A DNA stretch of 64,000 nucleotides from Granulicella sp. (GCA_027365345.1 DAHXNO010000070.1:1-64000), one strand, 5' to 3'; shown: positions 2,183 to 44,296, counted from the stretch's first letter. Notes: generated from the sequence alone by a model not told the origin. Made by a program: numbers and translations.

Positions 2183-2902
2183 TCAGGCAAAGCTCTCGTC
2201 CAGTTGAATCGCGTTTGGGAAGAGAGTGTTGTTTTCCAGATGGATGTGTTGCTGTAGATCCTGCTCGAAGGCTGCAAGCGCGTGGTAAAGACCACGGTAG
2301 GTAGGGCAGGCGCCTTCCGGAGGCGTGAATCCTTTGCTGAGCAGGCGGATCCGGGCCATGATTTCCGCAGAGGCATCGTGTTCCGCCACCATCATGCGGA
2401 TGGGATTGCGCACCGCGCCAAAGCAGCCGAGCGGACGCGGGCCGCAGGTGATGAGATTGCGTTCAAGATGGGTGATGTAGGGGAAGAGTACGGCCTCTTC
2501 TTTCGCGAGGTGCTGGAGAAGATCGGCACCGAGCGAGTGGATGAGTTGTTGAATCTGCGGCAGCTCTGGATGCGCGGTTCCGTGGCGCGAGATGACCTTT
2601 TGCGCCAGCATGTCAAGGCGCGGCAGCTCGGCGCGGATGTAGGCGTGATGCGTGGCTACGATATGGTTGCAGATGGTTTCGAGCGATTCGGCAGCCCAGT
2701 TGACGGCGTCTTCTGCGGTTCCCGCAGTGGCCTCCGCAATGGCCTGGAGAACCGTGCCGGGCTCAAGGGAGTGCTCCTGGCACGCTTCGGTGAGTGGCTT
2801 GCGGCCGCCACAGCAGTAGTCGATGCCGAACTTTTCAAAGATGCGGATGGAGGCCGGTTGCTCCAAGGCGATGTCCCGGACGGTGGTTTCAGATGTGGCC
2901 AT
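2183..2902 (-). CDS. ytfE: RIC-family iron-sulfur cluster repair di-iron protein (YtfE/ScdA/DnrN)
   Basis: This 239-residue protein has an N-terminal ScdA_N domain (residues about 5-60) with the diagnostic Cys-Cys pair in FGIDYCCGG. A hemerythrin-like four-helix domain follows, with His/Glu ligands in NHIVATHHAY, LLQHLAKEEAVLFP, MVAEHDAS and QQHIHLENNTLFP. RIC proteins rebuild Fe-S clusters damaged by nitric oxide or oxidants in the cytoplasm. The start at 2902 is set by an AGGAG Shine-Dalgarno 8 nt upstream; the open frame extends further but has no conserved sequence there. It is divergent from the Crp/Fnr gene. A predicted -10 (TAAGGT, 2928-2923) lies 29.5 bp from the centre of the shared palindrome at 2951. 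Confidence 0.93.
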   Translation of the reverse strand: MATSETTVRDIALEQPASIRIFEKFGIDYCCGGRKPLTEACQEHSLEPGTVLQAIAEATAGTAEDAVNWAAESLETICNHIVATHHAYIRAELPRLDMLAQKVISRHGTAHPELPQIQQLIHSLGADLLQHLAKEEAVLFPYITHLERNLITCGPRPLGCFGAVRNPIRMMVAEHDASAEIMARIRLLSKGFTPPEGACPTYRGLYHALAAFEQDLQQHIHLENNTLFPNAIQLDESFA

Positions 2903-2950
2903 GGTGATCTCTCCTGAAGGCAACCTTACGGAAATGCGGCGGCGGATGCT

Positions 2951-2964
2951 GCGACTAAAGTCAC
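2951..2964. promoter_or_regulatory. Crp/Fnr-type palindrome, site 1 (ytfE/regulator intergenic)
   Basis: The sequence is GCGAC-TAAA-GTCAC. It is one of six near-identical palindromes in this window. Its centre is 29.5 bp from a TAAGGT -10-like hexamer on the minus strand, giving position -41.5 for ytfE and a leader of about 14 nt. It also lies about 30 bp before the regulator gene's ATG and might autoregulate it. Confidence 0.7.
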
Positions 2965-2994: not shown

Positions 2995-3696
2995 ATGGCT
3001 GAACAAGGAAACACCGTCTCCTCACTCGGCGCGGCCGCACTCTTCTCCAGCCTGTCACCGGAGGAGTTGCGGCTTTTGGGGGAGCACGCGGTGCGCAAAC
3101 GCTATGGGCAGGGGGAGTTGCTGTTTTCTGAAGGCGATCCGTGCAAGGGTCTGCACATTATCGCCAGCGGTAAGCTGCGCATCTTCAAGAGTTCCGCCAG
3201 TGGCCGGGAGCAGGTGCTTGCGGTGGAGGGTCCGGGTGGATCGGTGGCGGAGTTGCCGGTCTTCGATGGGGCGCCGTATCCGGCGTCCGTGAGCGCGGTG
3301 GAGGAGTCAGAGGTTCTATTTATCTCGCGCAACGATTTTCGCAACTTCTGCCTGGCGCATCCTGAAGTAGCTCTGAAGATGCTGGCCGTGGTGGGGGCGC
3401 GGCTGAGGCGGCTGGTAGGGATTATCGAGGAGCTTTCCTTTGCCACCGTGCGCCAGCGGCTGGCGTCTGTGCTGGTGCGACTGGCCCAGACCCAGGGAAG
3501 ACAGACCGGCGCAGGCAGGGAGTTTCAGCTTTCTGGAACCCATCAGGAACTGGCGCAGGAGCTTGGCACGGTGCGCGAGCTGGTGTCGCGCAATCTGATG
3601 CGGCTGCAGGCGGAGGGGCTGGTGCAGGTGGAGGGGCGGAAGATCACGGTGGTTGACTTGCCGGGTCTGACGGCGATTCTGGACAGCAGTTCGTAA
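2995..3696 (+). CDS. Crp/Fnr-family transcriptional regulator, probable nitric-oxide regulon activator
   Basis: This 233-residue protein has an N-terminal cyclic-nucleotide-like beta-roll (about residues 15-130), a dimer helix, and a C-terminal winged HTH (about 165-225). The recognition helix contains RELVSR. Its E-x-x-S-R pattern is that of FNR (Glu-209, Ser-212, Arg-213), which reads TTGAT/TTGAC-like half-sites. No N-terminal cysteine cluster is present, so it is not an Fe-S FNR; DNR/NnrR-type regulators, which sense NO, also lack one. It is flanked by RIC and NnrS genes. Six palindromes with TGAC/GTCA cores in the window are its likely targets. No Shine-Dalgarno precedes the ATG at 2995. 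The ligand is inferred from context only. Confidence 0.88.
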   Translation: MAEQGNTVSSLGAAALFSSLSPEELRLLGEHAVRKRYGQGELLFSEGDPCKGLHIIASGKLRIFKSSASGREQVLAVEGPGGSVAELPVFDGAPYPASVSAVEESEVLFISRNDFRNFCLAHPEVALKMLAVVGARLRRLVGIIEELSFATVRQRLASVLVRLAQTQGRQTGAGREFQLSGTHQELAQELGTVRELVSRNLMRLQAEGLVQVEGRKITVVDLPGLTAILDSSS

Positions 3697-3713: not shown

Positions 3714-3727
3714 GCGACTAAAGTCAC
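3714..3727. promoter_or_regulatory. Crp/Fnr-type palindrome, site 2 (upstream of nnrS)
   Basis: The sequence is GCGAC-TAAA-GTCAC, identical to site 1. The centre lies 29.5 bp before TACGCT (3750-3755), the predicted -10. The resulting start near 3762 gives nnrS an 18-nt leader that contains its ribosome binding site. Confidence 0.7.
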
Positions 3728-3779
3728 TGCGTTCTGACCGGTGGGCTTCTACGCTCGATTCTGTGAGCGGAGAAGAGCC

Positions 3780-5132
3780 ATGAGCACAACAGTGATGGAA
3801 GTGGATGGAGTTTCTGGCGACGCAGCGGAGAAGCACCGTGCGCTGGTCGCTGTGGAGCGGCGCAAGAGCCTGCTGTTCCGGCTATGGATTGCCACGGGGC
3901 TGTTCTTTCTGGTGCTTCCGGGCACGATTTTAGGGTTCACCAACCTGCTGGTGATTACGGCGCATCATGGGCTGAGCGGGCTTTCACCGGCATGGATCCA
4001 GGCGCACGGCCACTCGCAGGTGTTTGGCTGGATTGGCAGTTTTGTGCTGGGGATTGGGTTCTATTCACAGCCACAGACGAGGGCCAACCGTGGCCGGTTG
4101 CCTGTAACCTGCTGGGCGTTGTGGACGGCCGGCCTGACGTTGCACTGGCTGGCCGGCGCTTATCTGTGGCGATGGCGTGTGACGCTGCCCCTCTCCGGGC
4201 TGCTGGAACTGGTGGCCATTCTAATGTTTCTGTATGCGGCCAGCCAGCACAAGCTGCCGGAGCAGACAGGCGAAGAGGCTGGGGCAAAGGCGAAGGCGCG
4301 TCCCAGAGCGGGGATGGAGCCCTGGATGCAGACGGTGCTGGTGAGCAATGCGGCGATGTTGATGGCCATTGCTCTGAACTTCGCCATTGAGGTGCGATTG
4401 GCGCTGGCAGGTTTGACTCCGGCCAGGCCGCATGGATTTGACCAACGATATCTGGTGCTGCTGGGGTGGGGATTTCTGGCTCCGCTGGTGTGGGGGTTCA
4501 GCGCCCGCTGGCTGCCGATCTTCCTGGGAGCAGGGCCGGTACGAGGCCGGATGCTCCAGATGGCCGTGCTGGTCGATGTGCTGGGTGTGGTTCTGGGCAT
4601 GGCGGGGCAGACCTTGGCTGCAACGGTGTTGCTGGCTGTGGGTGCAGTGATGGCTGCCGTGGCGATTCGCGTGTTTTCCGCTCCGGAGCGCCCTGCGAAG
4701 ACACTGGGAGTTCATTCCAGCTTTCCGGTATTTCTGCGTATTGCCTTTGTGTGGTCGATTGTGGCTTCGCTGCTGGGCGTCTGGGCCGCGGTGGCGGATG
4801 TTCATGGTGGGATCTGGGGCGGGTCTCGGCATGCGCTCACTGTGGGATTTGCGGCCATGATGGTGATGACGGTGGGACCGAGGATTCTGCCGCATTTTGC
4901 CGGTATCCTCCGGCTGTGGAGTCCGCGGCTGATGTTCGCCACGCTGCTCTTGCTGCTGGCCGGTTGCACCCTGCGCGTGAGTATGGAGCCGCTGGCCTAT
5001 GAGGGTATGGCGCATTTTGCGTGGAAGCTGCTGCCGATTTCAGGTTTTCTGGAGCTTGCCGCGGTGCTCCTGTTTGCGCTGCAACTGATTCTGACGGTAG
5101 CGCGCGGGGAGAGCTTCTTTCCGCCAGCTTGA
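3780..5132 (+). CDS. nnrS: NnrS family haem/copper membrane protein
   Basis: This 450-residue protein has about 12 hydrophobic segments in the NnrS pattern. The first conserved motif, HGHSQVFGWIGSFVLGIG, carries the conserved histidines, and HALTVGFAAMMVMTVGPR lies in the C-terminal half. NnrS proteins protect against nitrosative stress and typically sit beside NO-responsive Crp/Fnr genes. The start at 3780 is preferred because GGAGAAG lies 5-11 nt upstream; a longer frame from 3741 has no such signal. A copy of the regulator palindrome lies 52 nt before the start. The central cytoplasmic loop (about residues 160-190) is Ala/Lys/Arg-rich. Confidence 0.93.
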   Translation: MSTTVMEVDGVSGDAAEKHRALVAVERRKSLLFRLWIATGLFFLVLPGTILGFTNLLVITAHHGLSGLSPAWIQAHGHSQVFGWIGSFVLGIGFYSQPQTRANRGRLPVTCWALWTAGLTLHWLAGAYLWRWRVTLPLSGLLELVAILMFLYAASQHKLPEQTGEEAGAKAKARPRAGMEPWMQTVLVSNAAMLMAIALNFAIEVRLALAGLTPARPHGFDQRYLVLLGWGFLAPLVWGFSARWLPIFLGAGPVRGRMLQMAVLVDVLGVVLGMAGQTLAATVLLAVGAVMAAVAIRVFSAPERPAKTLGVHSSFPVFLRIAFVWSIVASLLGVWAAVADVHGGIWGGSRHALTVGFAAMMVMTVGPRILPHFAGILRLWSPRLMFATLLLLLAGCTLRVSMEPLAYEGMAHFAWKLLPISGFLELAAVLLFALQLILTVARGESFFPPA

Positions 5133-5365: not shown

Positions 5366-5379
5366 GTGACATAAGTCGC
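5366..5379. promoter_or_regulatory. Crp/Fnr-type palindrome, site 3 (upstream of polyferredoxin gene)
   Basis: The sequence is GTGAC-ATAA-GTCGC. Its centre is 29.5 bp upstream of TAGATT (5402-5407), a good -10 match. The predicted start near 5414 leaves a 17-nt leader before the ATG at 5431. Confidence 0.7.
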
Positions 5380-5430: not shown

Positions 5431-6516
5431 ATGGCTACGCAGACGGTAGAGAGTGTGACCTCGCAGACTGCAAAGAAGAAGCTGGTTCGGCGCTTGCTGC
5501 AAGACCGGTCGCAAACGATCCGGCATTTGATGCAATGGGCGTTTGTGGCGCTGAACGCCTGGCTTGGTCTTCAGTTTTACCTGTGGGTCCGTTACTTTGA
5601 GCGGGGCGGAGAGGGGCTCTATGTGTCGCGTCCGGCCGGCGTAGAGGGCTGGCTGCCGATTGCCGGCATGATGAACACCAAGTATTTTCTTACGACGGGG
5701 AGGGTTCCGAGTATCCATCCCGCGGCCATGTTCCTGTTCATGGCGTTTGTGACGATGAGCCTGCTGCTGAAGAAGTCATTTTGCTCCTGGATTTGCCCGA
5801 TCGGCACGGTCTCCGAGCGGTTGTGGAGGGTGGGACGGAAGGTGTTCCAGCGTACGTTCCGGTTGCCGCGTTGGGCGGATCTTCCGCTGCGTAGCCTGAA
5901 GTATTTGCTGCTGGGATTCTTTGTGTACGTGGCCGGGAGCTTGCCGGCGGCTGCGCTGAGGGGGTTTATGCACACGCCCTACGGCATGGTGGCCGATGTG
6001 AAGATGCTGAACTTTTTCCGCGAGATGAGTGTGACGGGGATCGTGGTGCTGCTGGTGCTGGGGGTGCTTTCCCTGCTGGTGCAGAACTTCTGGTGCCGCT
6101 ACCTGTGTCCTTATGGGGCGCTGATGGGCCTGGCTTCGCTGTTGAGTCCGCTGAAGATTCGGCGCGACGCGGAGGCGTGTATCGATTGCGGCAAATGCGC
6201 GCGCGCGTGCCCGGCGGGTTTGCAGGTGGATCGCCTGGTGCAGATTCGCTCTGTGGAGTGTACGGCGTGCACGGAGTGCGTTGCCGCCTGCCCGGCCGAG
6301 CATGCCTTGCAGTTTGCCGCAACGCCGCGCAGAGCGGCTGATGTGGCGGAGCGGTGGAGAGGCCGAGTGGCAGGTCCAACGGCGACGGCGGCGGCGATTT
6401 TGGTGTTGTTCCTGGGTACGGTGGCGGTGGCCAAAGCTACTGGGCACTGGCAGACGCATTTGCCCCGCCAGATGTATGTGGATCTGGTGATGCATGCGGA
6501 TGAGTGGACGCACTGA
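5431..6516 (+). CDS. Membrane-bound 4Fe-4S polyferredoxin (NapH/NosR C-terminal type)
   Basis: This 361-residue membrane protein has about five hydrophobic segments. It carries two membrane-proximal CX3CP motifs (Cys118/122 in CSWICP and Cys222/226 in CRYLCP). Two classical [4Fe-4S] ferredoxin motifs follow: Cys250/253/256/260 and Cys277/280/283/287. This is the layout of NapH and the C-terminal part of NosR, which pass electrons from the quinol pool to periplasmic reductases. The start at 5431 has GAGGGAGA upstream; the frame is open back to 5197 without conserved sequence. A last helix near the C-terminus is followed by a short tail. The electron acceptor is unknown; the HAO-like cytochrome at 24.6 kb carries the same type of regulatory site and is a candidate. 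Confidence 0.85.
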   Translation: MATQTVESVTSQTAKKKLVRRLLQDRSQTIRHLMQWAFVALNAWLGLQFYLWVRYFERGGEGLYVSRPAGVEGWLPIAGMMNTKYFLTTGRVPSIHPAAMFLFMAFVTMSLLLKKSFCSWICPIGTVSERLWRVGRKVFQRTFRLPRWADLPLRSLKYLLLGFFVYVAGSLPAAALRGFMHTPYGMVADVKMLNFFREMSVTGIVVLLVLGVLSLLVQNFWCRYLCPYGALMGLASLLSPLKIRRDAEACIDCGKCARACPAGLQVDRLVQIRSVECTACTECVAACPAEHALQFAATPRRAADVAERWRGRVAGPTATAAAILVLFLGTVAVAKATGHWQTHLPRQMYVDLVMHADEWTH

Positions 6517-6650: not shown

Positions 6651-7184
6651 CTATCTCCGTCTTGCCTGGAACTCTGAGCCAATGGCGGCCAGCGCCGCAT
6701 TGTCGAGTACCTGAGCGGCACGTGGGAAGACGATGGACTCTTCTAACTGGATGTGTGCTGTCTGGATGCTGCGCAGCTCTGAGGTTGCGGAGAGCAGGGC
6801 CTGCTGTTCCTGGCTGCTGAGGGTAGAAGTTTCCATCCATTGCCGGTAGAGCGATTCGACCTGCTGATGAAGACTTTCGGTGCGGCGGTGATCGTCTTCG
6901 AGGTGGGCGAGGTTGGCCTGGGAGTGATCGGGGTCTGCTACGCGAAGGCGAGGAAAGACAGACGCTTCTTCGTCGGCATTGTGACGCAGGCCGGCCTGCT
7001 GAAAGTACTGAAGGGACGCGGAGACGGCTGCGCGTTCTTCCGGAGTGAGGGAGCGCCCGCAGGCTTGCTCTGCCACCAGGCAGAGGATATGGAGAAATCG
7101 TTCGATGCGGCGGTGGCAGTCCTGAAGCATCCCGAGAGGATCCTCGAATCCGCTATCTGGTTTTGCGCCAATTTGTACGGGCAT
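6651..7184 (-). CDS. Hemerythrin domain-containing protein
   Basis: This 177-residue cytoplasmic protein is a single hemerythrin HHE fold. Iron-ligand candidates are His in LGMLQDCHRRIERFL (about residue 24), the RHNADEEASVFPRL motif (about 68-80), the LEDDHRR histidine and QTAHIQLEESIVFPRA near the end. Such proteins bind O2, NO or store di-iron. It lies downstream of the radical SAM gene on the same strand with a 100-bp gap. The two probably form one unit under the palindrome at 8469, with the radical SAM gene first. Unlike RIC, it has no Cys-Cys domain. Confidence 0.85.
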   Translation of the reverse strand: MPVQIGAKPDSGFEDPLGMLQDCHRRIERFLHILCLVAEQACGRSLTPEERAAVSASLQYFQQAGLRHNADEEASVFPRLRVADPDHSQANLAHLEDDHRRTESLHQQVESLYRQWMETSTLSSQEQQALLSATSELRSIQTAHIQLEESIVFPRAAQVLDNAALAAIGSEFQARRR

Positions 7185-7284: not shown

Positions 7285-8433
7285 TCAGGCGCCCTGCAGA
7301 ACGTGGAGCGTGTCGGCTGCGCGAATGGCCGGTGGCGGCGCGACGTAACCTTTGGGGATGTAAGAGCAGCAAGGCTCTTCGGCCATGGGATCGCCGGTGA
7401 GAGCGTAGGCGCGAGCGCGCGAGCCGCCGCAGATTTCCTTGAATTCGCAGTGACCGCATTTGCCGGTGAGTTGCGCTGGGTCGCGCAAGCTGTGAAAGAG
7501 CGGCGAGTGACGATAGATGGAGGCGAGCGGTTTGTGCCGGATGTTGCCGGCGGTGAGCGGCAGGAATCCGCTGGGGTAGACCTCTCCGGTGTGGGAGATG
7601 AAGAGGAAGCCCTTGCCGTCGTTGAGCCCGCGCGGCGCGCGTCCAAGGGAATCCGCCATCTTCTCGGGAGCTGAGTCTGCGGTAATCCCGGCTTTGCGCT
7701 CCGCAACGCGCTGCTGCAGGATGTAGCGGCGGTAGTGCTGAGCTTCCGTGGTCTTGATGTCGAAGCTGGCGGTCTTTGAGAGCTGGTAGATTCGCGCGAA
7801 GACCTGTTCGAACTGGTCTGCGCTGAGCAGATCGTCGAGCTTTCCTCGTCCGGTGGGGACCAGGAAGAAGACGCTCCACAGCGTAATGCGAAGGTTCTCC
7901 ACCCGTGCGGCGATCTCATCCAGTTCCGAGAGGTTGCGGCGGCTGAAGGTGGTGTTGATCTGGACGGGCAGACCGGCTTCATTTGCCCAGGAGACGGCGT
8001 TGAGGGTTCGTTGAAAGGAGCCGGACATGCCGCGAAAGGCGTCGTGCGTCCGGGCGCATGCTCCGTCAAGACTTACTGCGAGGCGCGCGAGGCCCGCCTG
8101 TTTGAGCCGGAAGACGATCTGGCGGGTGAGCAGCGGGGTGGCGCTGGGAGTGAGGGAGACGCGGACCCCGACGTTACGCGCGTGCTCGATGAGTTCAAAG
8201 AGGTCGGGGCGCTTGATCGGATCGCCGCCCGTCAGCACGAAGACGGGCACATCCAGCGATGCAATCTGATCGATCAGGTTCTTGCCCTCGTCGGTGGTCA
8301 GTTCCAAGGGGTGGCGCAGCGGTTGGGCCGCGGCGCGGCAGTGGACGCAGGCCAGGTCGCAGGCCTGGGTGACCTCCCAGATAGCGAGAAAGGGACGCTG
8401 GTTGAAGTCGATGGCGTGAATCTGCGGGTTCAT
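7285..8433 (-). CDS. Radical SAM/SPASM protein (TIGR04053-like), predicted leaderless
   Basis: This 382-residue protein has the radical SAM CX3CX2C motif at Cys25/29/32 in TQACDLACVHC, a glycine-rich TGGDP strand, and a C-terminal SPASM cysteine cluster (CGHCEFKEICGG ending in a Cys-Cys pair). It resembles the TIGR04053 group related to the haem-d1/alternative haem enzymes NirJ and AhbD, so a role in haem or peptide modification is possible but unproven. The start at 8433 fits the family start (ERPFLAIWEVTQ-like context). There is no Shine-Dalgarno. The predicted -10, TCTAAT (8446-8441), puts the transcript start at or one base before the ATG, suggesting a leaderless mRNA. Confidence 0.87.
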   Translation of the reverse strand: MNPQIHAIDFNQRPFLAIWEVTQACDLACVHCRAAAQPLRHPLELTTDEGKNLIDQIASLDVPVFVLTGGDPIKRPDLFELIEHARNVGVRVSLTPSATPLLTRQIVFRLKQAGLARLAVSLDGACARTHDAFRGMSGSFQRTLNAVSWANEAGLPVQINTTFSRRNLSELDEIAARVENLRITLWSVFFLVPTGRGKLDDLLSADQFEQVFARIYQLSKTASFDIKTTEAQHYRRYILQQRVAERKAGITADSAPEKMADSLGRAPRGLNDGKGFLFISHTGEVYPSGFLPLTAGNIRHKPLASIYRHSPLFHSLRDPAQLTGKCGHCEFKEICGGSRARAYALTGDPMAEEPCCSYIPKGYVAPPPAIRAADTLHVLQGA

Positions 8434-8468
8434 GGTTTTGATTAGAAGCGACTTGACGCGAGGGCGCA

Positions 8469-8482
8469 GTGACCAAAGTCGC
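8469..8482. promoter_or_regulatory. Crp/Fnr-type palindrome, site 4 (upstream of radical SAM gene)
   Basis: On the minus strand the sequence is GCGAC-TTTG-GTCAC. The centre (8475.5) lies 29.5 bp from TCTAAT, a five-of-six match to the -10 consensus. The predicted transcription start falls at the start codon. Confidence 0.7.
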
Positions 8483-23290: not shown

Positions 23291-23519
23291 CGGTCAGGGC
23301 CTGGGCGCGTATCGTTCCCGGTAATGGGGGGGGTGCGTGGAGTCCGGCTGCGGCTCTGTCAGACGCTCTGCTCCGCAATCCGGTAGGGGTGGGAGGGATT
23401 CCAAGCGCCAATGCGGACAGGGGTCCGGGTGGGATTGGGGGCTGTTGGAGGGGTGCGGTTTCCTCGGTTGGGGAGGGTTTCGCACACCCGGGCGCGCCCC
23501 ATGGCCTGCCATGGGATGG
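23291..23519 (+). repeat. Dispersed ~225-bp intergenic repeat, copy 1
   Basis: This GC-rich stretch matches 28133-28352 in the same orientation over its whole length, with long identical runs (for example the tracts beginning GGTCAGGGCCTGGGCGCGTA and TTTCCTCGGTTGGGGAGGGT) and scattered substitutions. It lies between the AsmA start and the HAO-operon membrane gene. No open frame in it has a start signal or known family. The rest of the gap (23235-23290 and 23520-23685) shows no gene. Confidence 0.85.
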
Positions 23520-23685: not shown

Positions 23686-24618
23686 TCAGTCTAGAGCGTT
23701 CTCTACATCCTGGGGATGCGTCCATCGGTAGATAGAGCCTAGCCAGGAGATTCCTGGTGTTGATTCCTCCAGATGCGGAATCAGCGCCCACAGACCGATA
23801 AGCGCCAGCGCAACGAGGTTGGGGAACAGCAGGGGCGCCAAGGGTGGCGCTCCATTGACGAGTTTCTCAAAGAGGCTGTGCCCGGGTTCGAGGAGATTGC
23901 TGTGCAGGTGGAACCAGAAGCCGAGGATGCCGACGAGCGCCTGAATCAAGAGCACCAGAAGGCAGAGGTCGAGGAATCGGCGGGTGACCTTCATGAAGAG
24001 GGGAACGATAAGAAAGCCGGTTGCGAATGCCGACGAGATGACTGGGATCCACTCGGTCTTAAAGAAGAAGCCGTTGCCGGCGTGATCGGTGAGGGAGAGG
24101 ACAAAATTGCCGAAGAAGCCGCCCAGGGCGAGGAGCATGACCCACTGCGCCCACTCCTTGCTGTGCGAGTCGACCATGCGGTTGGCCAGCAGCAGAAAGC
24201 CAAGACCGGTGTAGGCCAGCGGCGCCGCAAAGGGGGCTGCATAGGTAAGGCTCTTCAGCGTCCGGTCGAGGAAGAAGCTGCTCTCCAAGTGGTAGAGCAC
24301 GCCGGCCAAGCCGACCAGGGCGGCCAGCCACCCGATCAAGTAACCCACATCCCGCCAGGGAGCTTGCAGATGCCATCGCCAGCGCAGCGCGATTCCAGCC
24401 GCCAGGATGGGGGGCGCTGCGATCGAGAAGTAGAGAGGAATGTATTCGGCAGGCCTGCGGAACTGGTTGGTGGAATGGGCGATGTAAATATCGGCTGCAA
24501 GGATGGCAAGATTGACCGTGACAAAGAGTTCTACCCAGAGTTGAGGATCATGCGCCCAGCGCAGCCGCGGGGCGCTGACGATCTTCTGGGCGCGCGCGAG
24601 CAGCTTATTTGTGAGCAT
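23686..24618 (-). CDS. Multi-pass membrane protein coupled to HAO-like cytochrome
   Basis: This 310-residue protein has about eight membrane segments (for example LFVTVNLAILAADIYIA, IAAPPILAAGIAL, WVMLLALGGFFGNFVLSL, LCLLVLLIQALVGILGFW). I do not recognise a named family. Its start overlaps the last 14 bp of the octaheme cytochrome gene and has GGAGGGAGC immediately upstream, so the two are translationally coupled. It could anchor the cytochrome and exchange electrons with quinones. Histidines in HLESSF, LTDHAGN and FWFHLHSN lie at segment ends and might bind haem b; this is inference. Confidence 0.8.
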   Translation of the reverse strand: MLTNKLLARAQKIVSAPRLRWAHDPQLWVELFVTVNLAILAADIYIAHSTNQFRRPAEYIPLYFSIAAPPILAAGIALRWRWHLQAPWRDVGYLIGWLAALVGLAGVLYHLESSFFLDRTLKSLTYAAPFAAPLAYTGLGFLLLANRMVDSHSKEWAQWVMLLALGGFFGNFVLSLTDHAGNGFFFKTEWIPVISSAFATGFLIVPLFMKVTRRFLDLCLLVLLIQALVGILGFWFHLHSNLLEPGHSLFEKLVNGAPPLAPLLFPNLVALALIGLWALIPHLEESTPGISWLGSIYRWTHPQDVENALD

Positions 24619-25840
24619 GCTCCCTCCGGAGTTCGTTGGCCTGATGCTGGAGTTCGACGGTTTGTTCCAGCAACGCATAATTTCCGTGCCACTGCGCGAA
24701 GTCCGCTCCGCCCATAAACGCGCCGTGTTTGCTGGTGCGGCCGGCGTAGTGCCACATATTGAAGTAGGTGAAATCGATGGCGTGGGTAAAGGGAGGGCCA
24801 GACAGGACGCCATCCTTATGCAGGTTATCCATGATCGTTGTGGCGACGAGGATCCTGGCGTTGGTAGCGGCCACCTGCTGTTCCGCCTGCTGATAGACGC
24901 GATCGACCGAGGCGCTGGTATGGCACTGTGCACAGACCTGCTTCATCCTGGCCTGGGCCTGGGCGTAGTCCGGACGGTGGGTGCTGACGGGAGCAGTGAG
25001 GTACCAACTGAGACGCTCCGAGACGTTGTGCGTGAACCCGATGCCGTTGAGGCCGCTCATGTGGCAGGTGGCGCAGGTTGGAACCCACATGTCGCGCGTT
25101 GTCAGCGTGCGTGGGTCGGCGCTCAAATTCAATTGATTGTGAAACGCGGCGAACATGACGCCATGTTTCGATTCGGTGTAGATTTCCAACTGCGAGTGAT
25201 CCGGGCCCATATGGCATTGGCCACAGGTGGAAGGGAGACGGGCGAGGGCCACAGAGTCGGCGTGGCGTGAATGGCAGTCTGTGCAGGTGCCGATGGTTCC
25301 GTCGTCGTTGGGCTTACCAATGGCGTGGCAGTGATCGCATCCGCCAGTAACCGCGACGTGACCTTCAGGGAGGGTCAGGGGGTTTGGCGGGCGCTTTGTG
25401 CCTCCGGGCTGATAGGTCTCACTAAAGGCGACTTGCTGGGGTGAAAGCCCCTGTTCGCCGTTTATGGCGGCCCACGCGGGGGCGGCATGGCGGCTCTCCA
25501 GGAACTCCTGGTAGATGCCTTCGTGGCAGGAGCGGCAGTTGCCGGCGGTGAGGTGGTCGCTGATCACGAATCCGTGGTGATCGACCTTCTTTTGCCCCGG
25601 CGCAGGCTGGTGGCAGTCGAGGCAGGTGACGCCCTTCCGGGCGTGGGCGGACATCTCATATTCATGCACTACGGAATATTGTTGGCGCTCGTGGCACTGG
25701 GCGCATTTTCCCGACGCCTCGACAAGCGCGGCGGTAGGCTGCGCCACTTCAACCCTGGGGCGAGCCAGATTGATCAGGAAAGCGGAGACGATGAGCCCGA
25801 AGGCAATGACAACGGCTACAAATACGGAACGGAATGACAT
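24605..25840 (-). CDS. Octaheme c-type cytochrome, hydroxylamine oxidoreductase (HAO)-like
   Basis: This 411-residue protein has an N-terminal signal anchor (residues 5-24) and exactly eight CxxCH haem motifs (first Cys at 46, 73, 102, 168, 186, 206, 256 and 303). The C-terminal helix region carries the HAO-family block MWHYAGRTSKHGAFMGGADF followed by QWHGNY. HAO-family enzymes oxidise hydroxylamine or, in non-nitrifiers, probably reduce nitrite, NO or hydroxylamine in the periplasm. Without an alignment I cannot say whether the Tyr that cross-links haem P460 is present. GGAG lies 9 nt before the ATG at 25840. The palindrome at 25986 is about 145 bp upstream. A membrane protein gene overlaps its end. 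Confidence 0.87.
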   Translation of the reverse strand: MSFRSVFVAVVIAFGLIVSAFLINLARPRVEVAQPTAALVEASGKCAQCHERQQYSVVHEYEMSAHARKGVTCLDCHQPAPGQKKVDHHGFVISDHLTAGNCRSCHEGIYQEFLESRHAAPAWAAINGEQGLSPQQVAFSETYQPGGTKRPPNPLTLPEGHVAVTGGCDHCHAIGKPNDDGTIGTCTDCHSRHADSVALARLPSTCGQCHMGPDHSQLEIYTESKHGVMFAAFHNQLNLSADPRTLTTRDMWVPTCATCHMSGLNGIGFTHNVSERLSWYLTAPVSTHRPDYAQAQARMKQVCAQCHTSASVDRVYQQAEQQVAATNARILVATTIMDNLHKDGVLSGPPFTHAIDFTYFNMWHYAGRTSKHGAFMGGADFAQWHGNYALLEQTVELQHQANELRREHAHK

Positions 25841-25985
25841 CGAGTCACACTCCAAGGCAAAGCCAGCTTGAACACCCTTCACGGACGTCGCCGTGCGTGC
25901 CCGCCGGCGGGGTGCCGACAACTCTCTCATGATCATCGGCAGGCTTGCGTGAATTCCAGCATCGCTCCCGGGGTGGTTGCCGGCA

Positions 25986-25999
25986 GCGACTTAAGTCAC
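25986..25999. promoter_or_regulatory. Crp/Fnr-type palindrome, site 5 (HAO-like operon)
   Basis: The sequence is GCGAC-TTAA-GTCAC, a perfect dyad except for the second base of each arm. On the minus strand GATGCT lies 29.5 bp from its centre, a weak -10. That would give a leader of about 111 nt for the cytochrome gene. Action toward the plus strand is less likely because site 6 serves that side. Confidence 0.6.
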
Positions 26000-26287
26000 T
26001 CCGGTCCAGTTCTGTGCGTAGTAGGCCCCTCGGTATGAAGGAGGGTTGTGCGGGCCAGTCTCGCCGAGATGGTGTTTCCGGCCTGGTCTTTCGGCTATCC
26101 ATGAAGTTTGTCTGGACGTTGGTTCGAAGTGGTCTGGACGAGGCTTCTGATCGATTTCAGCAAGCGTTCTTCGGGATGCTCCGCGCCACTTTGTCGCTGT
26201 AGACTCTTTTGTTTTGCCACCCTCTCCTCCTTTGGATTTGCCGCGCACTGGATTTAAAGGGCACCGCAGCAGATTCAGCGACGTCTT

Positions 26288-26301
26288 GTGACTAAAGTCC
26301 C
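26288..26301. promoter_or_regulatory. Crp/Fnr-type palindrome, site 6 (upstream of qNorB remnant)
   Basis: The sequence is GTGAC-TAAA-GTCCC. TACTGT (26324-26329) lies 29.5 bp from its centre. The predicted start near 26336 gives a 46-nt leader to the ATG at 26382. Confidence 0.65.
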
Positions 26302-26381: not shown

Positions 26382-26954
26382 ATGGCCTATAAGCGTTATT
26401 GGCTTGCACTGGCGGTTGTTGTGGTTGGATCGTTCGCGATCCTGGGATCTACAGGAAGGAAGATGATCAGTCAGGCTCCCCCCATTCCGGACGTCTATAC
26501 CACGGATGGACAGCTTCTGTTTACCGGTGCGACGGTCACCGATGGGCAGGGCGTGTGGCAATCCATCGGAGGGCAGGAGATCGGCACGGTCTGGGGGCAC
26601 GGCTCCTACGTTGCGCCTGACTGGAGCGCTGGTTGGCTGCATCGCGAGTCAGAGATTCTGCTCAACATGGGGGCGGTAAGGGCTGGGGCGCGTGATTTTG
26701 CCGCTCTGGGAGCGCGGGCGGCGGCTCTCTTCTGGTGGACTTCCTGGGCCGCGCACACTGATCGTCCCGGATCGACGACCACGTATACCAACAACTGGCC
26801 GCATGAGCCGCTGGTTGGCAACGAGCCGACCCCGGGAGCGGTCCTCTGGAGCCTGATCAGCTTTGTTGGTCTGCTGGCCGGCATCGGAGGGCTCGTGTGG
26901 TGGTCCGCATCGCAGGAAAAGGTGCTCGTTGACGGGGCATTCCTACGCGGATGA
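26382..26954 (+). pseudogene. norB: qNorB (quinol nitric oxide reductase) N-terminal remnant with internal deletion
   Basis: The 190-residue frame matches the start of quinol-type nitric oxide reductases: a membrane helix (about 5-25), PPIPDVYTTDGQLLFTG, VWQSIGGQEIGTVWGHGSYV and PDWSAGWLHRE. It then jumps to a later part of the same domain (FFWT-like LFWWTSWAAHTDRPG, TYTNNWPHEPLVGNEPTPG and the second helix LISFVGLLAGIGGLVWW). Roughly 60 residues between these parts are missing. After a novel tail it stops, so the whole catalytic haem/FeB domain (several hundred residues) is absent. The remaining frame is uninterrupted and has a GAGGGA ribosome site and a regulatory palindrome. It could therefore still be expressed as a small two-helix protein, but it cannot reduce NO. 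Confidence 0.8.
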
Positions 26955-27675: not shown

Positions 27676-28008
27676 ATGGACTATACATTTCTTGCCAATC
27701 TGCAACAGGAGTTGGCGCCGCCTGAAAAGGGAATCCTGAGCCGGGTTCTGCGCAAAGACGATCGAGTCAACGTCACGCTATTCGGCTTCTCAGAAGGTGA
27801 GGCGCTCTCCACCCATTCGTCGCCGACGCCGGCCGTTCTCTATTTTCTGGAGGGGGAGGCTGAAGTTCAATTGGGAGCGGACAAGGTCAATACCCAACAA
27901 GGCTCCTTTCTCTATATGCCTCCCATGTTGCCTCACGGGATCACTGCCAAAACTGCTCTTCGCCTGTTGCTTGTTCAGATGAAGGATCAACCACGATCTG
28001 TGGAGTGA
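27676..28008 (+). CDS. Small cupin domain protein
   Basis: This 110-residue protein is almost wholly a cupin_2 barrel. Motif 1 is GFSEGEALSTHSSPTPAVLYFLEGEAEV, with one His rather than the usual His-x-His. Motif 2 is QGSFLYMPPMLPHGITA, with the conserved His. An AAGGAG signal lies 6 nt before the ATG at 27676. A longer frame from 27541 is possible but unsupported. It probably forms a unit with the preceding cupin gene. Its function is unknown; metal binding is inferred from the fold. Confidence 0.75.
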   Translation: MDYTFLANLQQELAPPEKGILSRVLRKDDRVNVTLFGFSEGEALSTHSSPTPAVLYFLEGEAEVQLGADKVNTQQGSFLYMPPMLPHGITAKTALRLLLVQMKDQPRSVE

Positions 28009-28132: not shown

Positions 28133-28352
28133 CGGTCAGGGCCTGGGCGCGTATCGTCCACGGTGATGGGAGGGGTTGCGTGGAGTCCGGCCGTGGCTCT
28201 CCCGGGCGCTTTGTTCCGCGATCCGGTAGGGGCGGGAGGGTTCCAGGCGCCAATGCGGACAGGGGTCCGGGTGGGGTTGGGGGCTGCTTGATGGGCGCGG
28301 TTTCCTCGGTTGGGGAGGGTTTCGCACACCCGGGCGCGCCCCCCTGGCCTGC
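28133..28352 (+). repeat. Dispersed ~225-bp intergenic repeat, copy 2
   Basis: This is the direct-repeat partner of 23291-23519, in the same orientation. It ends about 70 bp before the DnaC-like gene. The two copies bracket the HAO-like operon, the qNorB remnant and both cupins (about 4.6 kb). The left flank of the gap (28009-28132) holds nothing recognised. Confidence 0.85.
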
Positions 28353-33658: not shown

Positions 33659-34807
33659 TCATCCGGCTACGGGCTGCGAGACGACAACCGCTTGACCGGC
33701 GGCGACGCGGGTCAGTTTTGCGGTTACACGCATCACGCCGGGCCAGATGCGGAGGCAGAATGGCAACACCGCACGCGCGAGGCTGTTGTTGATGCCGTCC
33801 GCGGCGAATTCGGCGAGGCGCATCTGGGGCAGCAGTGCGGAGCGTAAACGAGCCTGGAAGAGCGGGGCGGGTTCGTCTGCAAGGAAGGCCGCTACGGCGC
33901 AACGAGCCGTGTGCAGCGCGATCGATATGCCATCGCCGGTGAAGGATGGGATGACCGCGGCCTGGTCGCCGACGCAGTAGAGGCCTTGCTCCGTTGTGCG
34001 GCGAATGTATCCGTAGGGGATGCGGGCGACCGAGATTGGCTTTTCGAGCAAGGGCTCCGCTCCTGCCAGCCGCAGGGCAAGATGCGGGCACGCCTGTTGC
34101 ATCCGGAGCAGGAGTTTGTCCCAGCGATAGCCGGCGCGTGCGAGGTGCGGCTGCTGCACAACCCAGCAGAGATTGGCGACGCCGCCTTCCACCGGCTGGA
34201 TGCCACCGTAGCCGCCGGGATAGAGCATCAGCTCTGAGGCGTTGGCGAGCTCGGCGGCTTGCGCGGGCTGAAGCCTGTAATACATCTTGAACGCGACCCA
34301 ACGCTGCGGGTCGTCAGGGCGCGGGAAGCTGCGCAGATCGTGCTTTCCTGTGGCGAGAATGGCGGTGGGCGCCGTATAGACAGAGCCGTTATCGAGTTTG
34401 GCCTGCCAGGCTCCGGCGGGTGTACGGGTGAGGGACTCCACGCTGCGGCCGGCCTCAACGCGAACTCCAGCGGCCTTGGCCTCGGCTATGAGGGCGGTGT
34501 CTAATGCCTTGCGGGTGAGCGACTTGGCAGGGAAAGGAAGGGGCGCCTCCGCGGCGCGCCTTGCGGCGGCGAGGCGAACGTTGGCGATGTGCGCCGCACC
34601 CAGAGAGACGACATCGATTCCAAGAGCGTCGAGGTCCTCCAGCGCTTCACCGCTGAGAAACTCTCCGCATACTTTATGGCGTGGCGCGGTTTCGCGCTCG
34701 ATCAATCGTACGGCTCTTCCGTGGCGAGCCAGCGCAATGGAAGCAGCACAGCCCGCAACCCCACCCCCAAGAACCAACACTTCGTCCTGCAAATCGCTGC
34801 TCCTCAT
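33659..34807 (-). CDS. FAD-dependent oxidoreductase of the geranylgeranyl reductase/PHBH type
   Basis: This 382-residue flavoprotein has the N-terminal FAD-binding motif LVLGGGVAGCAASIALARHG with the acidic residue at the end of strand 2 (RLIERE), a KVCGEFLSGEAL segment, and the second FAD motif GLYCVGDQAAVIPSFTGDGI. It resembles halogenase/geranylgeranyl-reductase-like hydroxylases. In Streptomyces srsABC-type loci a flavoprotein acts after a type III PKS and a methyltransferase to hydroxylate phenolic lipids. Both partners are encoded 1.7-3.5 kb away on the same strand. The start at 34807 has GGAAGATCC upstream. Confidence 0.82.
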   Translation of the reverse strand: MRSSDLQDEVLVLGGGVAGCAASIALARHGRAVRLIERETAPRHKVCGEFLSGEALEDLDALGIDVVSLGAAHIANVRLAAARRAAEAPLPFPAKSLTRKALDTALIAEAKAAGVRVEAGRSVESLTRTPAGAWQAKLDNGSVYTAPTAILATGKHDLRSFPRPDDPQRWVAFKMYYRLQPAQAAELANASELMLYPGGYGGIQPVEGGVANLCWVVQQPHLARAGYRWDKLLLRMQQACPHLALRLAGAEPLLEKPISVARIPYGYIRRTTEQGLYCVGDQAAVIPSFTGDGISIALHTARCAVAAFLADEPAPLFQARLRSALLPQMRLAEFAADGINNSLARAVLPFCLRIWPGVMRVTAKLTRVAAGQAVVVSQPVAG

Positions 34808-34952
34808 GCTCAGGATCTTCCACCAATCCGTAGCTGGATTCTCTATTGAGAGTAGACGACGTGGAGAGGGCTTCGCTGCCGATTCTGAACGAATCGTCAT
34901 ATAGCTGATGGGAGTACGCTCGACGGGATGAGGCGTCCAAAAGAGGAGAACG

Positions 34953-35744
34953 ATGCATGGAAAGAAGCTGAACGCTCCCAGAGTGTGCGCCCTGATTGTG
35001 TTGATGGGGATTCCGGCGGCTGCGGCGGAACAGATTCCGGTTCGACACGTCCAACTGCCGATGCAGCGGTGGATGGTGACGCGCTCCCAGACGGGAGCGA
35101 CGCTTGCGCGGGACGAGTTCACGCAGTCGGTTCAGGGAGACGAGGTGACGATGCGCCTCACCTTGCACTTTCTGGATGGATCTGTGGACGAGGAGACGAC
35201 GAGCTACCGGCAGCAGGGGACGTTCCGGCTGCTGGGGGACCGTCAAATCGAAAGAGGGCCTTTTTTTGCGAGGCCGGTGGACTTTACGGTGGATGCGGTT
35301 ACGGGCGTGCTGACCAGCCGCAGCACGGAGGCGGGTGGCGGGAGCAGAGTGGAGAGCCGACAGATGGATCTGCCGGCTGACATTGCGAATGGGATTGTTG
35401 GGACGCTGTTGTTGAATGTTCCGCGGCATACAAAGCCGTTTTCCGTGGATATGGTGGCTCCGGTGGAGGGTGGGCGGCTGGTTCAGCTCCTGATCTCGCC
35501 GGAGGGTGAGCGGCCGTTCAAGATGGATGGCCAGAACCTGACAGCCACGGTGTTCCGGATTCATCCGGTGCTGGGCGGCCTTGTGGGGTTGATTGCGCGC
35601 CTGCTGGGAATGCAGCCAAAGGATGTGATGGTGTGGATTTGGGAGGGCTCGGATCCGGCGGTGGTGAGGATCGTTGGGCAGCTTGGGGGCTCAGGTCCGG
35701 TGGTGACCTCGGATCTGGTGGGCGCCAGCTTTGGCAGGCCGTAG
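34953..35744 (+). CDS. Secreted protein of unknown function
   Basis: This 263-residue protein has a signal peptide (residues 1-25, cleavage near AAAAEQ). The mature part is mostly beta strands, with a TMRLTLHFLDGSVDEETTSYRQQGTFRLL block and a later WIWEGSDPAVVRIVG strand. I do not recognise the family; a DUF3108-like periplasmic fold is conceivable. AGGAG lies 5 nt before the ATG at 34953. It is transcribed opposite to the surrounding phenolic-lipid genes and starts about 145 bp from the flavoprotein start. A role in handling that product in the envelope is speculation. Confidence 0.7.
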   Translation: MHGKKLNAPRVCALIVLMGIPAAAAEQIPVRHVQLPMQRWMVTRSQTGATLARDEFTQSVQGDEVTMRLTLHFLDGSVDEETTSYRQQGTFRLLGDRQIERGPFFARPVDFTVDAVTGVLTSRSTEAGGGSRVESRQMDLPADIANGIVGTLLLNVPRHTKPFSVDMVAPVEGGRLVQLLISPEGERPFKMDGQNLTATVFRIHPVLGGLVGLIARLLGMQPKDVMVWIWEGSDPAVVRIVGQLGGSGPVVTSDLVGASFGRP

Positions 35745-36558: not shown

Positions 36559-37272
36559 TCATTTCCACCGTCCTACGCACAGACGGCCCGGCCTCCAGCG
36601 CTCCACAGTGACGGTTTCCAGTGGGATTCCGGCGGTGGCGAGCAGGCGGCGCCAGTCTTCTTTGCGAAAGGCGCGGCGGAAGGAGACGGGGCCATCATGG
36701 CGCACCAGCGGGTGCCAGGGCACCAAGCCGAACAAGCGGCTGGTCCGTTCGGAGCGCTCCAGATCGTTGATGAACCAGCCACAGGTGGCGGTGGTCTCCA
36801 TCCATTGGAGCAGCGAGACGATCTGTTCGTCTTCCAGGTGATGGACCATGAGCGAGCTGACGATGATGTGTACCGGCTGATCGGATTGATAGGCCAGGGC
36901 ATCGCCGGTGATCCAGGTGATGCCCAGTTCGGCAGGGGTGAACTCCTGTGCGGCGCGCGCGGCAAGAGGGTTGAGATCGATCCCGGTGAGTTGCACGGGG
37001 ATGGCGCGTCTGGAGGCCCAGTGCGCGATGCGGCGGAGGAGGTCACCGCCTCCGCTACCGACATCGAGGATGTGCACGGGACCGGGGAGACCGAGGGGCA
37101 GAGGCTTGAGCCAGGCAAGGGTTGGGCGGTAGCCAAGGAACCAGCGATTGATTCTTTCGAGGGTGCGCAGGCAATCGCGGAAGTCTTCATAGGAGCAGTC
37201 GCCATCCATCCACTCCGGCAAGTCGCGCGGAGAGGCGCGGCGGCTGAAGTCGGCGGAGGAACTAGACGGCAT
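36559..37272 (-). CDS. Class I SAM-dependent methyltransferase
   Basis: This 237-residue protein has the Rossmann SAM-binding motif HILDVGSGGGDLLRRIA (about 68-84), an acidic end of strand 2 (LTGIDLNPLA), and a SSLMVHHLEDEQIVSLL segment typical of the UbiE/methyltransf_12 type. Its start overlaps the end of the type III PKS gene by 11 bp, so the two are coupled. In srsB-type systems the enzyme O-methylates the alkylresorcinol or alkylquinone made by the PKS, and the same role is inferred here. Confidence 0.87.
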   Translation of the reverse strand: MPSSSSADFSRRASPRDLPEWMDGDCSYEDFRDCLRTLERINRWFLGYRPTLAWLKPLPLGLPGPVHILDVGSGGGDLLRRIAHWASRRAIPVQLTGIDLNPLAARAAQEFTPAELGITWITGDALAYQSDQPVHIIVSSLMVHHLEDEQIVSLLQWMETTATCGWFINDLERSERTSRLFGLVPWHPLVRHDGPVSFRRAFRKEDWRRLLATAGIPLETVTVERWRPGRLCVGRWK

Positions 37273-38323
37273 GAAAGCGCATGGTCTCCGCGGTCAGTCC
37301 GGGGCCGAAGGACATGGCGCATCCCTGCTGCCCTGGCTGCGCCTGCTGCAGCATCTGCTGCAAGACAAACATGACGGTGGCGGATGACATATTCCCGAAG
37401 TTTGAAAGGACGTTGCGCGAAGCGGCGAGGGCGTTGGGCGACAGATCCAGACCGCGCTCGACGGCGTCCAGAACCGAGCGGCCGCCGGGATGCACGGCCC
37501 AGAGATCGATGTTGGGGGCTTCGGCCATCAGGCCGCCCTGATGAAGGGCGCGGCCCAGCTCTCCTGGCACCTGCCCGGAGAGGAGCATGTCAAAGCCCAA
37601 GCCGCGAATCTTCCAGGTGATGAGGTTGCGGGTCTCCGGGACCATCACGGCGTGGAAGCTATCCATAGCGAAGCCCTGCTGCTGCGCGGTGATGAGGCTG
37701 GCTGCCGCGCCATCGGCAAAGACAAGGAAGGAGAGCACTTGTTCGAGGTCCTGGGTTTCCTGCAGGTGCAGGGAGCACAACTCAAGGTTGAGCATGAGGA
37801 CGCCGGCGCTGGGGTTGGAGCGCACGATGTGCCGGGCGAGTTTGAGCGCATTGATAGCGGCGTAACATCCCATGAAGCCGACCATGGTGCGCTCCACGCT
37901 GGTGGAGAGCCCGAGGTGGTCGACGATCTCAAAGTCCAGCCCTGGGGCGTAGAGTCCGGTACAACAGGTAACCAGGACATGAGTGATGCCGGCGCGCTCC
38001 TGCTCATTGAGCGCGAGTCCATCGACCGCGTTCTTCATGAGAACTGGGGCGCATTGCTCAAACACGTGCATTCTCTGCGCGGTATCAGGGAAGCTGCCGC
38101 GGCGATAGAACTTGTGGGCGTCATGCGAGGAGAAGTGGATGGGGGTGTGGTGGGGATTGAGGAAGGAGTAGCGATGGGAGATTTCAGCTCGGCTTGCCAT
38201 CCGGCGGAAGAGCGCACGCAGCCGAGGATCATCCAGCATTTGTTCTGCAAAGGCGACGAATGCGTCGTGCACGTCATACTCTGGAACAGCCGTGGCGATG
38301 CGGTTGATGTAAGCCGTTGTCAT
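37262..38323 (-). CDS. Type III polyketide synthase (chalcone/alkylresorcinol synthase-like)
   Basis: This 353-residue condensing enzyme has the active-site Cys in VGFMGCYAAINALK, a VTCCTGLYAPGLDFEIV segment before it, the catalytic His in WAVHPGGRSVLDAV, and the Asn in NFGNMSSATVMFVL. This is the Cys-His-Asn triad. The C-terminal GFGPG-type loop reads FGPGLTAE. Such bacterial enzymes extend fatty acyl-CoA with malonyl-CoA to alkylresorcinols or alkylpyrones. The start at 38323 is set by AAGGA 9 nt upstream; a TTG at 38344 is less likely. It leads a set with a methyltransferase and, further away, a flavoprotein. Confidence 0.92.
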   Translation of the reverse strand: MTTAYINRIATAVPEYDVHDAFVAFAEQMLDDPRLRALFRRMASRAEISHRYSFLNPHHTPIHFSSHDAHKFYRRGSFPDTAQRMHVFEQCAPVLMKNAVDGLALNEQERAGITHVLVTCCTGLYAPGLDFEIVDHLGLSTSVERTMVGFMGCYAAINALKLARHIVRSNPSAGVLMLNLELCSLHLQETQDLEQVLSFLVFADGAAASLITAQQQGFAMDSFHAVMVPETRNLITWKIRGLGFDMLLSGQVPGELGRALHQGGLMAEAPNIDLWAVHPGGRSVLDAVERGLDLSPNALAASRNVLSNFGNMSSATVMFVLQQMLQQAQPGQQGCAMSFGPGLTAETMRFHAV

Positions 38324-38792
38324 GTGTAAAAGTCCTTCAAGCAAGGATACCGGGAATCAACTGTTCTGCGCGCCCAGGAGAAGCGAAATTGGGAGGCGAC
38401 GGCATCCCGCGACGACATAACGGCTATAGTTGTTGGGACGAAATCGCCGATGGTTGGATAGCCGTTTACGGGCCGGGCCCCAGATGACGATTTGTTCATC
38501 TCGTGGTTCGGCCCGAGTCTGGCGGAGGGGTCTGGCGCGCTGTACCGGGCAGGTAAAGGGAGCAGATGGCTTGGAACCGCCGTGGAACGGCTGAGCCGGA
38601 TGGTGAAGGCGAGGGCGACGGAGCGAAGCGCCGACCGGCGCGCTGGCTATGGCTGGGATGCAGGACTGGGCGCCGATGAGGTCTCAGGAATCAACGCGCA
38701 AGACCGCTCTCTCTGAGAAGAGGGTTGAGATCGACTGCGCTGTGGCGTGAATGCCGACGCAGCCTTTCTATCTAGCCAAAGGGAGAGACGGT
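38324..38792. other. Intergenic, no gene recognised
   Basis: This is the upstream region of the type III PKS gene, followed by the end region of the exosortase operon. No convincing frame is present. The PKS promoter should lie at 38340-38480. Confidence 0.5.
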
Positions 38793-41149: not shown

Positions 41150-41298
41150 CATCATCCTTCTTTCTTCCCTTGAGGTCGTGAATCTTTGGAGGGCGGGTAG
41201 GTAGCGGTTCCCGGCGGGACAGACCGGGCGGCCGGGCAAAACAAAATAGGTTGGAGCTTTCCAACCGTCACCGGCCGGGAGTTGTGATCCGGCGCGAG

Positions 41299-41955
41299 TC
41301 AGTTGGGGATAAACCGCGGCAAAATGGGGACGAGGCGATGGGCAAAGCGAATGTCACGCTGCTCGGCCGTGGCGAGAGACTCGTTGGGCTCCAGCGGAGT
41401 GATCAAACGGATAAGGGCTCCGTCCGTGCGGTTGTAGCGAATCGCGTCCAGCATCATGTAGGCCTTGGCGAGATAATCATTGGCGATGCTTCGGCCTTGA
41501 GCGAGATACCAATAGAGGACAACCTCCTTGTTGGTTCCATCGGTGATGACATATTCGCCCACCGGGTAGGGTCGGCTTCCGGGCTGATCCAGATTGATGG
41601 TTTTGGAGAAGAGGAAGGTCCAGCCGGCGCCGGGGAGGCAGTTCTGTGGGGAGTGGATGGACTGCCCGGTGCGCTGGGTGGGAAAGTAGCCGATAAAGAG
41701 AGAGATCGGCGGTTGCGAAGACTGGTGGGCGGTAGCCGGATCGGTGTAGTCGCGGTCCAGGAAATGGCCGTCGCCCAGAACGGAGAGGATGTCCGTTGGG
41801 ATGGGGATGTCCTGACCGCTCCAGTTTCCTATGGTCCTGGGAAGGAGGGTGAGATCCTCCACGGGCGGCACCCGGTCTACGGCTGCACGGAGCGTGAGGG
41901 TGGCCCACGCCGCGGTGAGCATAAGGAAGAGGACCCAATAGCGAGGAGATCTCAT
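41299..41955 (-). CDS. epsI: Exosortase-associated protein EpsI
   Basis: This 218-residue protein has one N-terminal membrane helix (residues 6-24) and the EpsI signatures: PRTIGNWSGQDIPIP, a YFPTQRTGQSIHSPQNCLPGAGW block with conserved Cys, and VVLYWYLAQGRSIANDY. EpsI occurs fused to or beside exosortases and is required for EPS or sorting, in an unclear role. Its ATG overlaps the exosortase stop (ATGA), so the two are co-translated. Confidence 0.92.
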   Translation of the reverse strand: MRSPRYWVLFLMLTAAWATLTLRAAVDRVPPVEDLTLLPRTIGNWSGQDIPIPTDILSVLGDGHFLDRDYTDPATAHQSSQPPISLFIGYFPTQRTGQSIHSPQNCLPGAGWTFLFSKTINLDQPGSRPYPVGEYVITDGTNKEVVLYWYLAQGRSIANDYLAKAYMMLDAIRYNRTDGALIRLITPLEPNESLATAEQRDIRFAHRLVPILPRFIPN

Positions 41956-42872: not shown

Positions 42873-42898
42873 CGGGGATCCTGTTTCCCTTCTTGTTG

Positions 42899-42914
42899 AG
42901 CAATTTCACTGCCA
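42899..42914 (-). promoter_or_regulatory. Sigma-54 (-24/-12) promoter of xrtA-epsI-prsT
   Basis: On the minus strand the sequence is TGGCAGTGAAATTGCT, which matches TGGCAC-N5-TTGCW at all defined positions except the sixth. GG and GC are 10 bp apart as required. The predicted start near 42888 leaves just enough leader for the ribosome site. Two sigma-54 activators are encoded in the same locus. Confidence 0.7.
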
Positions 42915-43576: not shown

Positions 43577-43592
43577 TGGCCACCGCAGTGCA
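43577..43592 (+). promoter_or_regulatory. Sigma-54-type promoter of the EPS export operon
   Basis: The sequence TGGCCACCGCAGTGCA has GG and GC exactly 10 bp apart and agrees at most other consensus positions. The predicted start near 43603 gives a 23-nt leader containing AAGGAG before the ATG at 43626. Confidence 0.55.
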
Positions 43593-43625
43593 AGAGAGAT
43601 TGGCATAGGGCTACAAGGAGTCTTC

Positions 43626-44288: not shown

Positions 44289-44296
44289 GGAGATCC

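Follow-up and report, generated by a model that had tools for sequence, protein, structure and literature searches.

A HAO-like octaheme cytochrome paired with an undescribed eight-helix membrane protein in a probable NO regulon of Granulicella: a candidate quinol-fed N-oxide reductase

The window analyzed here is a stretch of 64,000 nucleotides from Granulicella sp. (GCA_027365345.1 DAHXNO010000070.1:1-64000) that carries two overlapping genes on its minus strand, one for an octaheme cytochrome c resembling hydroxylamine oxidoreductase (HAO; 24605..25840, 411 aa) and one for a membrane protein of eight helices (8TM protein; 23686..24618, 310 aa). The 8TM gene begins inside the octaheme gene, 14 nt before its end, and this overlap of the reading frames (24605..24618, minus strand) is the part that stands of an earlier description of the two as “fused by overlap”, though they are two genes and no fusion. 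Upstream of the octaheme gene lies the palindrome GCGACTTAAGTCAC (25986..25999), and a second copy, GTGACTAAAGTCCC (26288..26301), precedes the remnant of a norB/norZ gene for qNOR (26382..26954, plus strand) and a cupin gene (27676..28008, plus strand) that adjoins norZ in relatives, too. Elsewhere in the window, translations point to a gene resembling type III polyketide synthases together with a methyltransferase (36559-38344), an FAD oxidoreductase near it (33659-35122), and an exosortase-like cluster of exosortase, EpsI-like protein, TPR protein, and polysaccharide export (38855-45574).

The octaheme cytochrome has an N-terminal membrane anchor or signal and eight CxxCH motifs (residues 46-50, 73-77, 102-106, 168-172, 186-190, 206-210, 256-260, and 303-307). 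It matches the HAO-like Pfam family PF13447 with 93.1 bits against a curated cut-off of 21.9, which bears out the HAO-family assignment of the first-pass annotation and settles its caveat that the protein might fall in a non-HAO octaheme family; in NCBIfam, it stays below every cut-off. Its nearest PDB relative by sequence is 4qo5 of Ignicoccus hospitalis (E 6e-49 in a profile search, ~30% identity), followed by the hydroxylamine oxidoreductase of Nitrosomonas. The segment GPDH (residues 212-215), which is invariant in A3 and includes the conserved Asp214-His215, lines up with GVDH of HAO, i.e., with the GxDH of the distal active-site segment. An AlphaFold model of the cytochrome was set aside for its pLDDT of 38, lack of hemes, and shallow alignment.

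The 8TM protein has no relative in Pfam, NCBIfam, or PDB, and its eight hydrophobic helices agree with the initial impression of an unrecognized eight-helix membrane protein; we also found no description of such a membrane partner in the open-licence literature. An AlphaFold (AF2) model from six sequences, of moderate confidence (pLDDT 67), likewise shows eight helices, and the absence of CxxCH motifs marks the protein as c-heme-free. Its two halves are homologous four-helix units (P 2.6e-13, hhalign), and their alignment brings together H48/H179, H110/H237, N51/N182, E58/E189, and P61/P192. Across 23 members with identities down to 31%, H48, H110, H179, and H237 are the only invariant histidines; they form one pair in TM1/TM3 (H48/H110) and one in TM5/TM7 (H179/H237), each residue lying 2-5 positions before the C-terminal end of its helix. 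In all 13 sequences counted, the side of the membrane on which the N-terminus lies is richer in K+R, which argues for an N-in orientation and thus for the histidines of TM1, 3, 5, and 7 being at periplasmic ends, the predicted side being the one where the anchored cytochrome is expected.

In known membrane cytochromes, a bis-His heme b is typically held by a pair of histidines on two helices that are two apart in the order of the chain. A conserved pair of this kind within a predicted four-helix bundle, as is characteristic of membrane b-type cytochromes, was found in the 23 sequences, and from this pattern we give even weight to the idea that each four-helix half of the 8TM protein would bind one heme b. 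Foldseek returned nothing significant for the low-confidence model (pLDDT 67), and the best matches of this model in VIA, with Z ~14, were two helical bundles of soluble proteins (3d19 and 3dby), taken as shared topology only. Weak Pfam matches to HlyIII (E 0.006, one member), Ceramidase (E 0.16, one member), and Rhomboid were not repeated in other members and were discarded.

The distribution of the 8TM gene was sampled within Acidobacteriota, and the conserved pairing for which the first-pass annotation had asked turned out to be strict. At the family level, nine full-length 8TM relatives were found in 200 genomes, all with an octaheme gene directly upstream; in one locus (L005), the octaheme gene upstream of the 8TM gene is split between two frames. 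Six public contigs with 8TM relatives, all from Acidobacteriota MAGs, likewise have the octaheme gene directly upstream, two of them (L020 and L023) being already counted in the family-level search. At the phylum level, 14/396 genomes carry a full-length 8TM gene and 14/396 carry this clade of octaheme, these being the identical 14 genomes, spread over eleven families, with the two genes adjacent in every one. The overlap of 14 nt is usual in relatives, and most of the others start within ~20 nt of that position. More distant octahemes (~45 genomes, E ~1e-80 to 1e-108) were never found in genomes with an 8TM gene, which was also absent from 16/16 of their flanks that were checked. Where the module has decayed, it has lost both genes, with only a remnant of the 8TM gene left and the octaheme gene gone or reduced to a remnant of 24 residues (L010 and L012), which counts for the pairing as well. 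Altogether, we consider it very likely that the octaheme and 8TM genes form an obligate pair. Decayed remnants of the module were seen in three loci of other Acidobacteriaceae (L010, L012, and L017), and tblastn of the 8TM protein against plasmids gave no match.

The palindrome at the octaheme gene, previously claimed as an NO-regulon element, is one of six copies of GTGACNNNNGTCAC (at most one mismatch) in the 64 kb, a number that was reached in 0/100 shuffles. All six lie upstream of genes of the NO cluster; besides the two copies near the pair, they are found between the RIC and Crp/Fnr genes (2951..2964), before the gene at 3741 (3714..3727), upstream of the polyferredoxin gene (5366..5379), and upstream of the radical SAM gene (8469..8482). 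The genes of this part of the cluster encode an iron-sulfur repair di-iron protein of the RIC/ScdA-YtfE type (2183..2917, minus strand), a Crp/Fnr-family regulator that is the presumed reader of the palindrome (2995..3696, plus strand), a multi-TM protein of NnrS-like character without Pfam match that relatives have in their NO cluster as well (3741..5132, plus strand), a NapH/NosR-like membrane polyferredoxin (5431..6516, plus strand), a hemerythrin-domain protein (6651..7184, minus strand), and a radical SAM/SPASM protein of TIGR04053 related to AhbD/NirJ (7285..8454, minus strand; 488 bits). Across the 4.2-Mb genome, GYGACNNAAGTCNC has ten distinct sites, of which six fall within the window and another precedes the single hcp gene.

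In two relatives (L062 and L064), the pair forms one block with an intact 765-aa qNOR, cupin, Crp/Fnr regulator, RIC, hemerythrin, radical SAM protein, polyferredoxin, and Hcp, and three others (L019, L024, and L063) have the same block with the pair in part. The NO-response cluster of the first-pass annotation is contiguous in relatives, whereas in our window ~13 kb of other genes separate its part at 2.2-8.8 kb from the pair with its neighbors at 23.7-28 kb. The polyferredoxin that had been proposed as a partner of the pair does start at 5431, is co-regulated, and is adjacent in one relative; its membership in one complex with the pair is at most a possibility. In two further loci (L058 and L059), the third gene after the pair encodes a protein of 503 aa without Pfam match. 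We are confident that the pair belongs to the NO regulon, and the nature of the regulon genes makes NO the most likely inducing signal. The regulon link was seen in Terriglobales-like relatives only, and distant families have neither NO genes nor the palindrome near the pair, so that the ancestral substrate may have been another one than NO, or NO may be one of several.

The norB remnant next to the pair is one open frame that keeps residues 1-106 and 185-255, while residues 256-765 of the 765-aa qNOR and with them the catalytic core are lost. Our source genome has no other NorB cytochrome-c-like domain, and its other COX1-family matches gave no tblastn match to norZ/qNOR. The first-pass annotation had spoken of a truncated NorB in a cluster lacking NorB, but what remains is less than a mere truncation would leave, and the lack is not general; since close relatives keep qNOR intact, with 765 aa and encoded divergently from the octaheme gene, it is a secondary loss in the source genome. 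The 4.8-kb segment of octaheme, 8TM, norB-remnant, and cupin genes is bracketed by a 210-bp direct repeat (23291..23500 and 28133..28342, both plus strand, 90% identical) that has only these two copies in the draft genome and may mark the rearrangement that moved this segment from the rest of the cluster.

For the direction of catalysis, the tyrosine that is cross-linked to the P460 heme is informative: Oxidative HAOs have it, reductive ones do not (PMC12758564), and HAOs without it are taken as reductive (PMC12758564, PMC3701875). Locating Tyr467 of HAO by its position in 1fgj, we considered several registers and found no counterpart among residues 366-387 of the octaheme cytochrome, where no tyrosine stands in any plausible register; depending on the register, the position opposite Tyr467 is taken by Phe381, Gln383, or a HAO-only insertion. 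A plain MAFFT placement of the short HAO C-terminal fragment was rejected as misplaced. A tyrosine does occur at the position of Phe381 in nearly all members of a second acidobacterial clade of octahemes (clade II), in homologs from Desulfobacterota, and in the most distant paired members (f13), as part of a D-Y-x-x-W-H motif (D-Y-x-Q-W-H in nearly all of clade II) in a segment that aligns with HAO ambiguously. The lack of a P460 tyrosine counterpart, which had been named beforehand as favoring a reductase, leads us to regard reductive use of the octaheme as likely.

We know of no 8TM partner for IhOCC (4qo5), which shares with our octaheme cytochrome the eight hemes and the association with the membrane and is its nearest structure by sequence, has a tryptophan instead of a tyrosine in the segment aligned to the P460 Tyr region, and differs in being archaeal and only ~30% identical. 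That it is an eight-heme, membrane-associated protein is taken from the title of a paper that PMC8840924 cites (Parey 2016). In the reverse-HURM of Nautilia and Campylobacter, HaoA goes with cM552 of the NapC/NrfH family, lacks the critical tyrosine, and is proposed to be an N-oxide reductase that is fed from quinol, with Hcp as the second enzyme (PMC3701875). Both that system and the pair described here have a HAO-like octaheme without the critical tyrosine, whereas their membrane partners differ, being a tetraheme NapC/CycB cytochrome c in the former and the c-heme-free 8TM protein in the latter; the pair most likely works like the reverse-HURM, yet it is no member of it as far as NapC defines that system.

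In Desulfosarcina ovata and Desulfobaculum bizertense, homologous octahemes (~30% identity) have a gene for a NapC/NirT cytochrome immediately before them. The octaheme of Desulfosarcina ovata is encoded on a plasmid and has norR, qNOR, and a gene for a hemerythrin as neighbors. The NO-defense neighborhood of this octaheme is alike, but NapC/NirT is found where the 8TM gene stands in our window. The source genome has a single Pfam NapC match above cut-off, which belongs to another multiheme protein (contig C133), and no NrfA was found in this genome. Judged from sequence, the 8TM protein occupies the place that is held elsewhere by quinol dehydrogenases such as NapC/NirT. The clade II octahemes of Acidobacteriota (~36% identical) have no 8TM partner; several are found in the order norB - cupin - octaheme (L104, L107, L110, and L113), and some beside Rieske/cytochrome b genes (L105 and L114), so that octahemes have swapped partners within one phylum.

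Weak matches led to a second family of ~350 aa that is homologous to the 8TM protein (P 9e-11, profile versus profile) and has the same duplication of a 4TM unit and four conserved histidines, but differs by a linker between the halves and by its redox partner. In Acidobacteriota, genes of this family (e.g., L065:4772-5878; also L013, L015, and L016) lie directly upstream of a Gluconate_2-dh3 gene in 4/4 loci seen, with a GMC oxidoreductase gene coming next in 3/3 loci whose contig reaches far enough. A weak Pfam match of a single member to DUF6962 was not reproducible and was dropped. Flavin-dependent gluconate dehydrogenases normally contact the quinone pool via a cytochrome c subunit. The presence of an 8TM-type module beside two unrelated redox enzymes argues for a role in electron transfer, which we consider quite likely for the 8TM protein. 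Tentatively, and with somewhat more doubt than conviction, the 8TM and GMC-associated families might form an undescribed superfamily of membrane quinone:cytochrome modules, each built by duplication of four helices that carry a single pair of His (for one heme b) at the periplasmic face, that are plugged into periplasmic redox enzymes as unrelated as an octaheme N-oxide reductase and flavin-dependent GMC dehydrogenases.

We cautiously favor a reading in which the octaheme is a reductase of NO, hydroxylamine, or nitrite that draws its electrons from quinol and is induced, most likely, by NO. In this reading, the 8TM protein would be a new kind of module for coupling quinol to a cytochrome, possibly with one b-heme per half. 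Octaheme and 8TM protein would form a single membrane-bound unit of respiration or detoxification: On the periplasmic side, the 8TM protein would oxidize quinol and hand the electrons on, probably via one b-heme per half (H48/H110 and H179/H237), to the membrane-anchored octaheme, whose fourth heme would reduce NO, hydroxylamine, or nitrite toward hydroxylamine or ammonium. The unit would be induced, most likely by NO, through the Crp/Fnr-family regulator and act alongside Hcp, RIC, and, in relatives, qNOR. With qNOR dead in our source genome, the load of NO or hydroxylamine would fall on the octaheme unit together with Hcp.

A rather unlikely variant of this reading would make the 8TM protein a heme-free quinol dehydrogenase similar to NrfD/PsrC that binds quinol among its conserved periplasmic His, Glu, Asp, and Asn residues and passes electrons straight to a surface heme of the octaheme. 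The two tandem four-helix units and the N-in topology of the 8TM protein resemble the plan of NrfD, E58, E189, D43, D178, and N51 are conserved near its histidines, and quinol coupling would be supported as well as in the heme b reading. None of 13 members matched Pfam NrfD at E up to 1, however, and a His pair at the same depth in each half is the pattern of a bis-His heme b, for which a heme-free site has no need. In ammonia oxidizers, the HURM delivers electrons from hydroxylamine oxidation to the quinone pool, and the pair could in principle run in this direction, with the octaheme oxidizing hydroxylamine (or NO) and the 8TM protein passing electrons to quinone. Such a reversal would suit the membership in the HAO family, the conserved Asp214-His215 of GxDH, and the homologous family next to GMC dehydrogenases, where electrons would enter the membrane, but it is made improbable by the missing P460 tyrosine, by the co-regulation with the NO defense genes hcp, RIC, and, in relatives, qNOR, and by the pairing of octaheme homologs with the quinol dehydrogenase NapC. 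Finally, we see little prospect for an 8TM protein that does not handle electrons, be it an assembly factor, an anchor, a channel for gas or N-oxides, or a metal-dependent enzyme akin to the CREST proteins (HlyIII/ceramidase), as the single HlyIII and Ceramidase matches might suggest, given that these matches are not common to other members, that the protein is duplicated with one His pair per half, that the octaheme already has its own N-terminal anchor, and that the module is found again beside a redox enzyme of an unrelated kind.

To our knowledge, few types of quinol-coupling modules have been described, i.e., those of NapC/NrfH, NrfD, cytochrome b, and NarI. If our favored reading of a quinol-fed octaheme reductase is true, many unannotated genes of the 8TM type would gain a role, and the Acidobacteriota, which are abundant in soils, would have a route that turns NO, hydroxylamine, or nitrite toward ammonium and not N2O in the absence of NrfA, NapC, and a functional NOR. 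Having lost qNOR but kept the octaheme unit, our source genome would then be a natural test of whether an octaheme can replace NorB.
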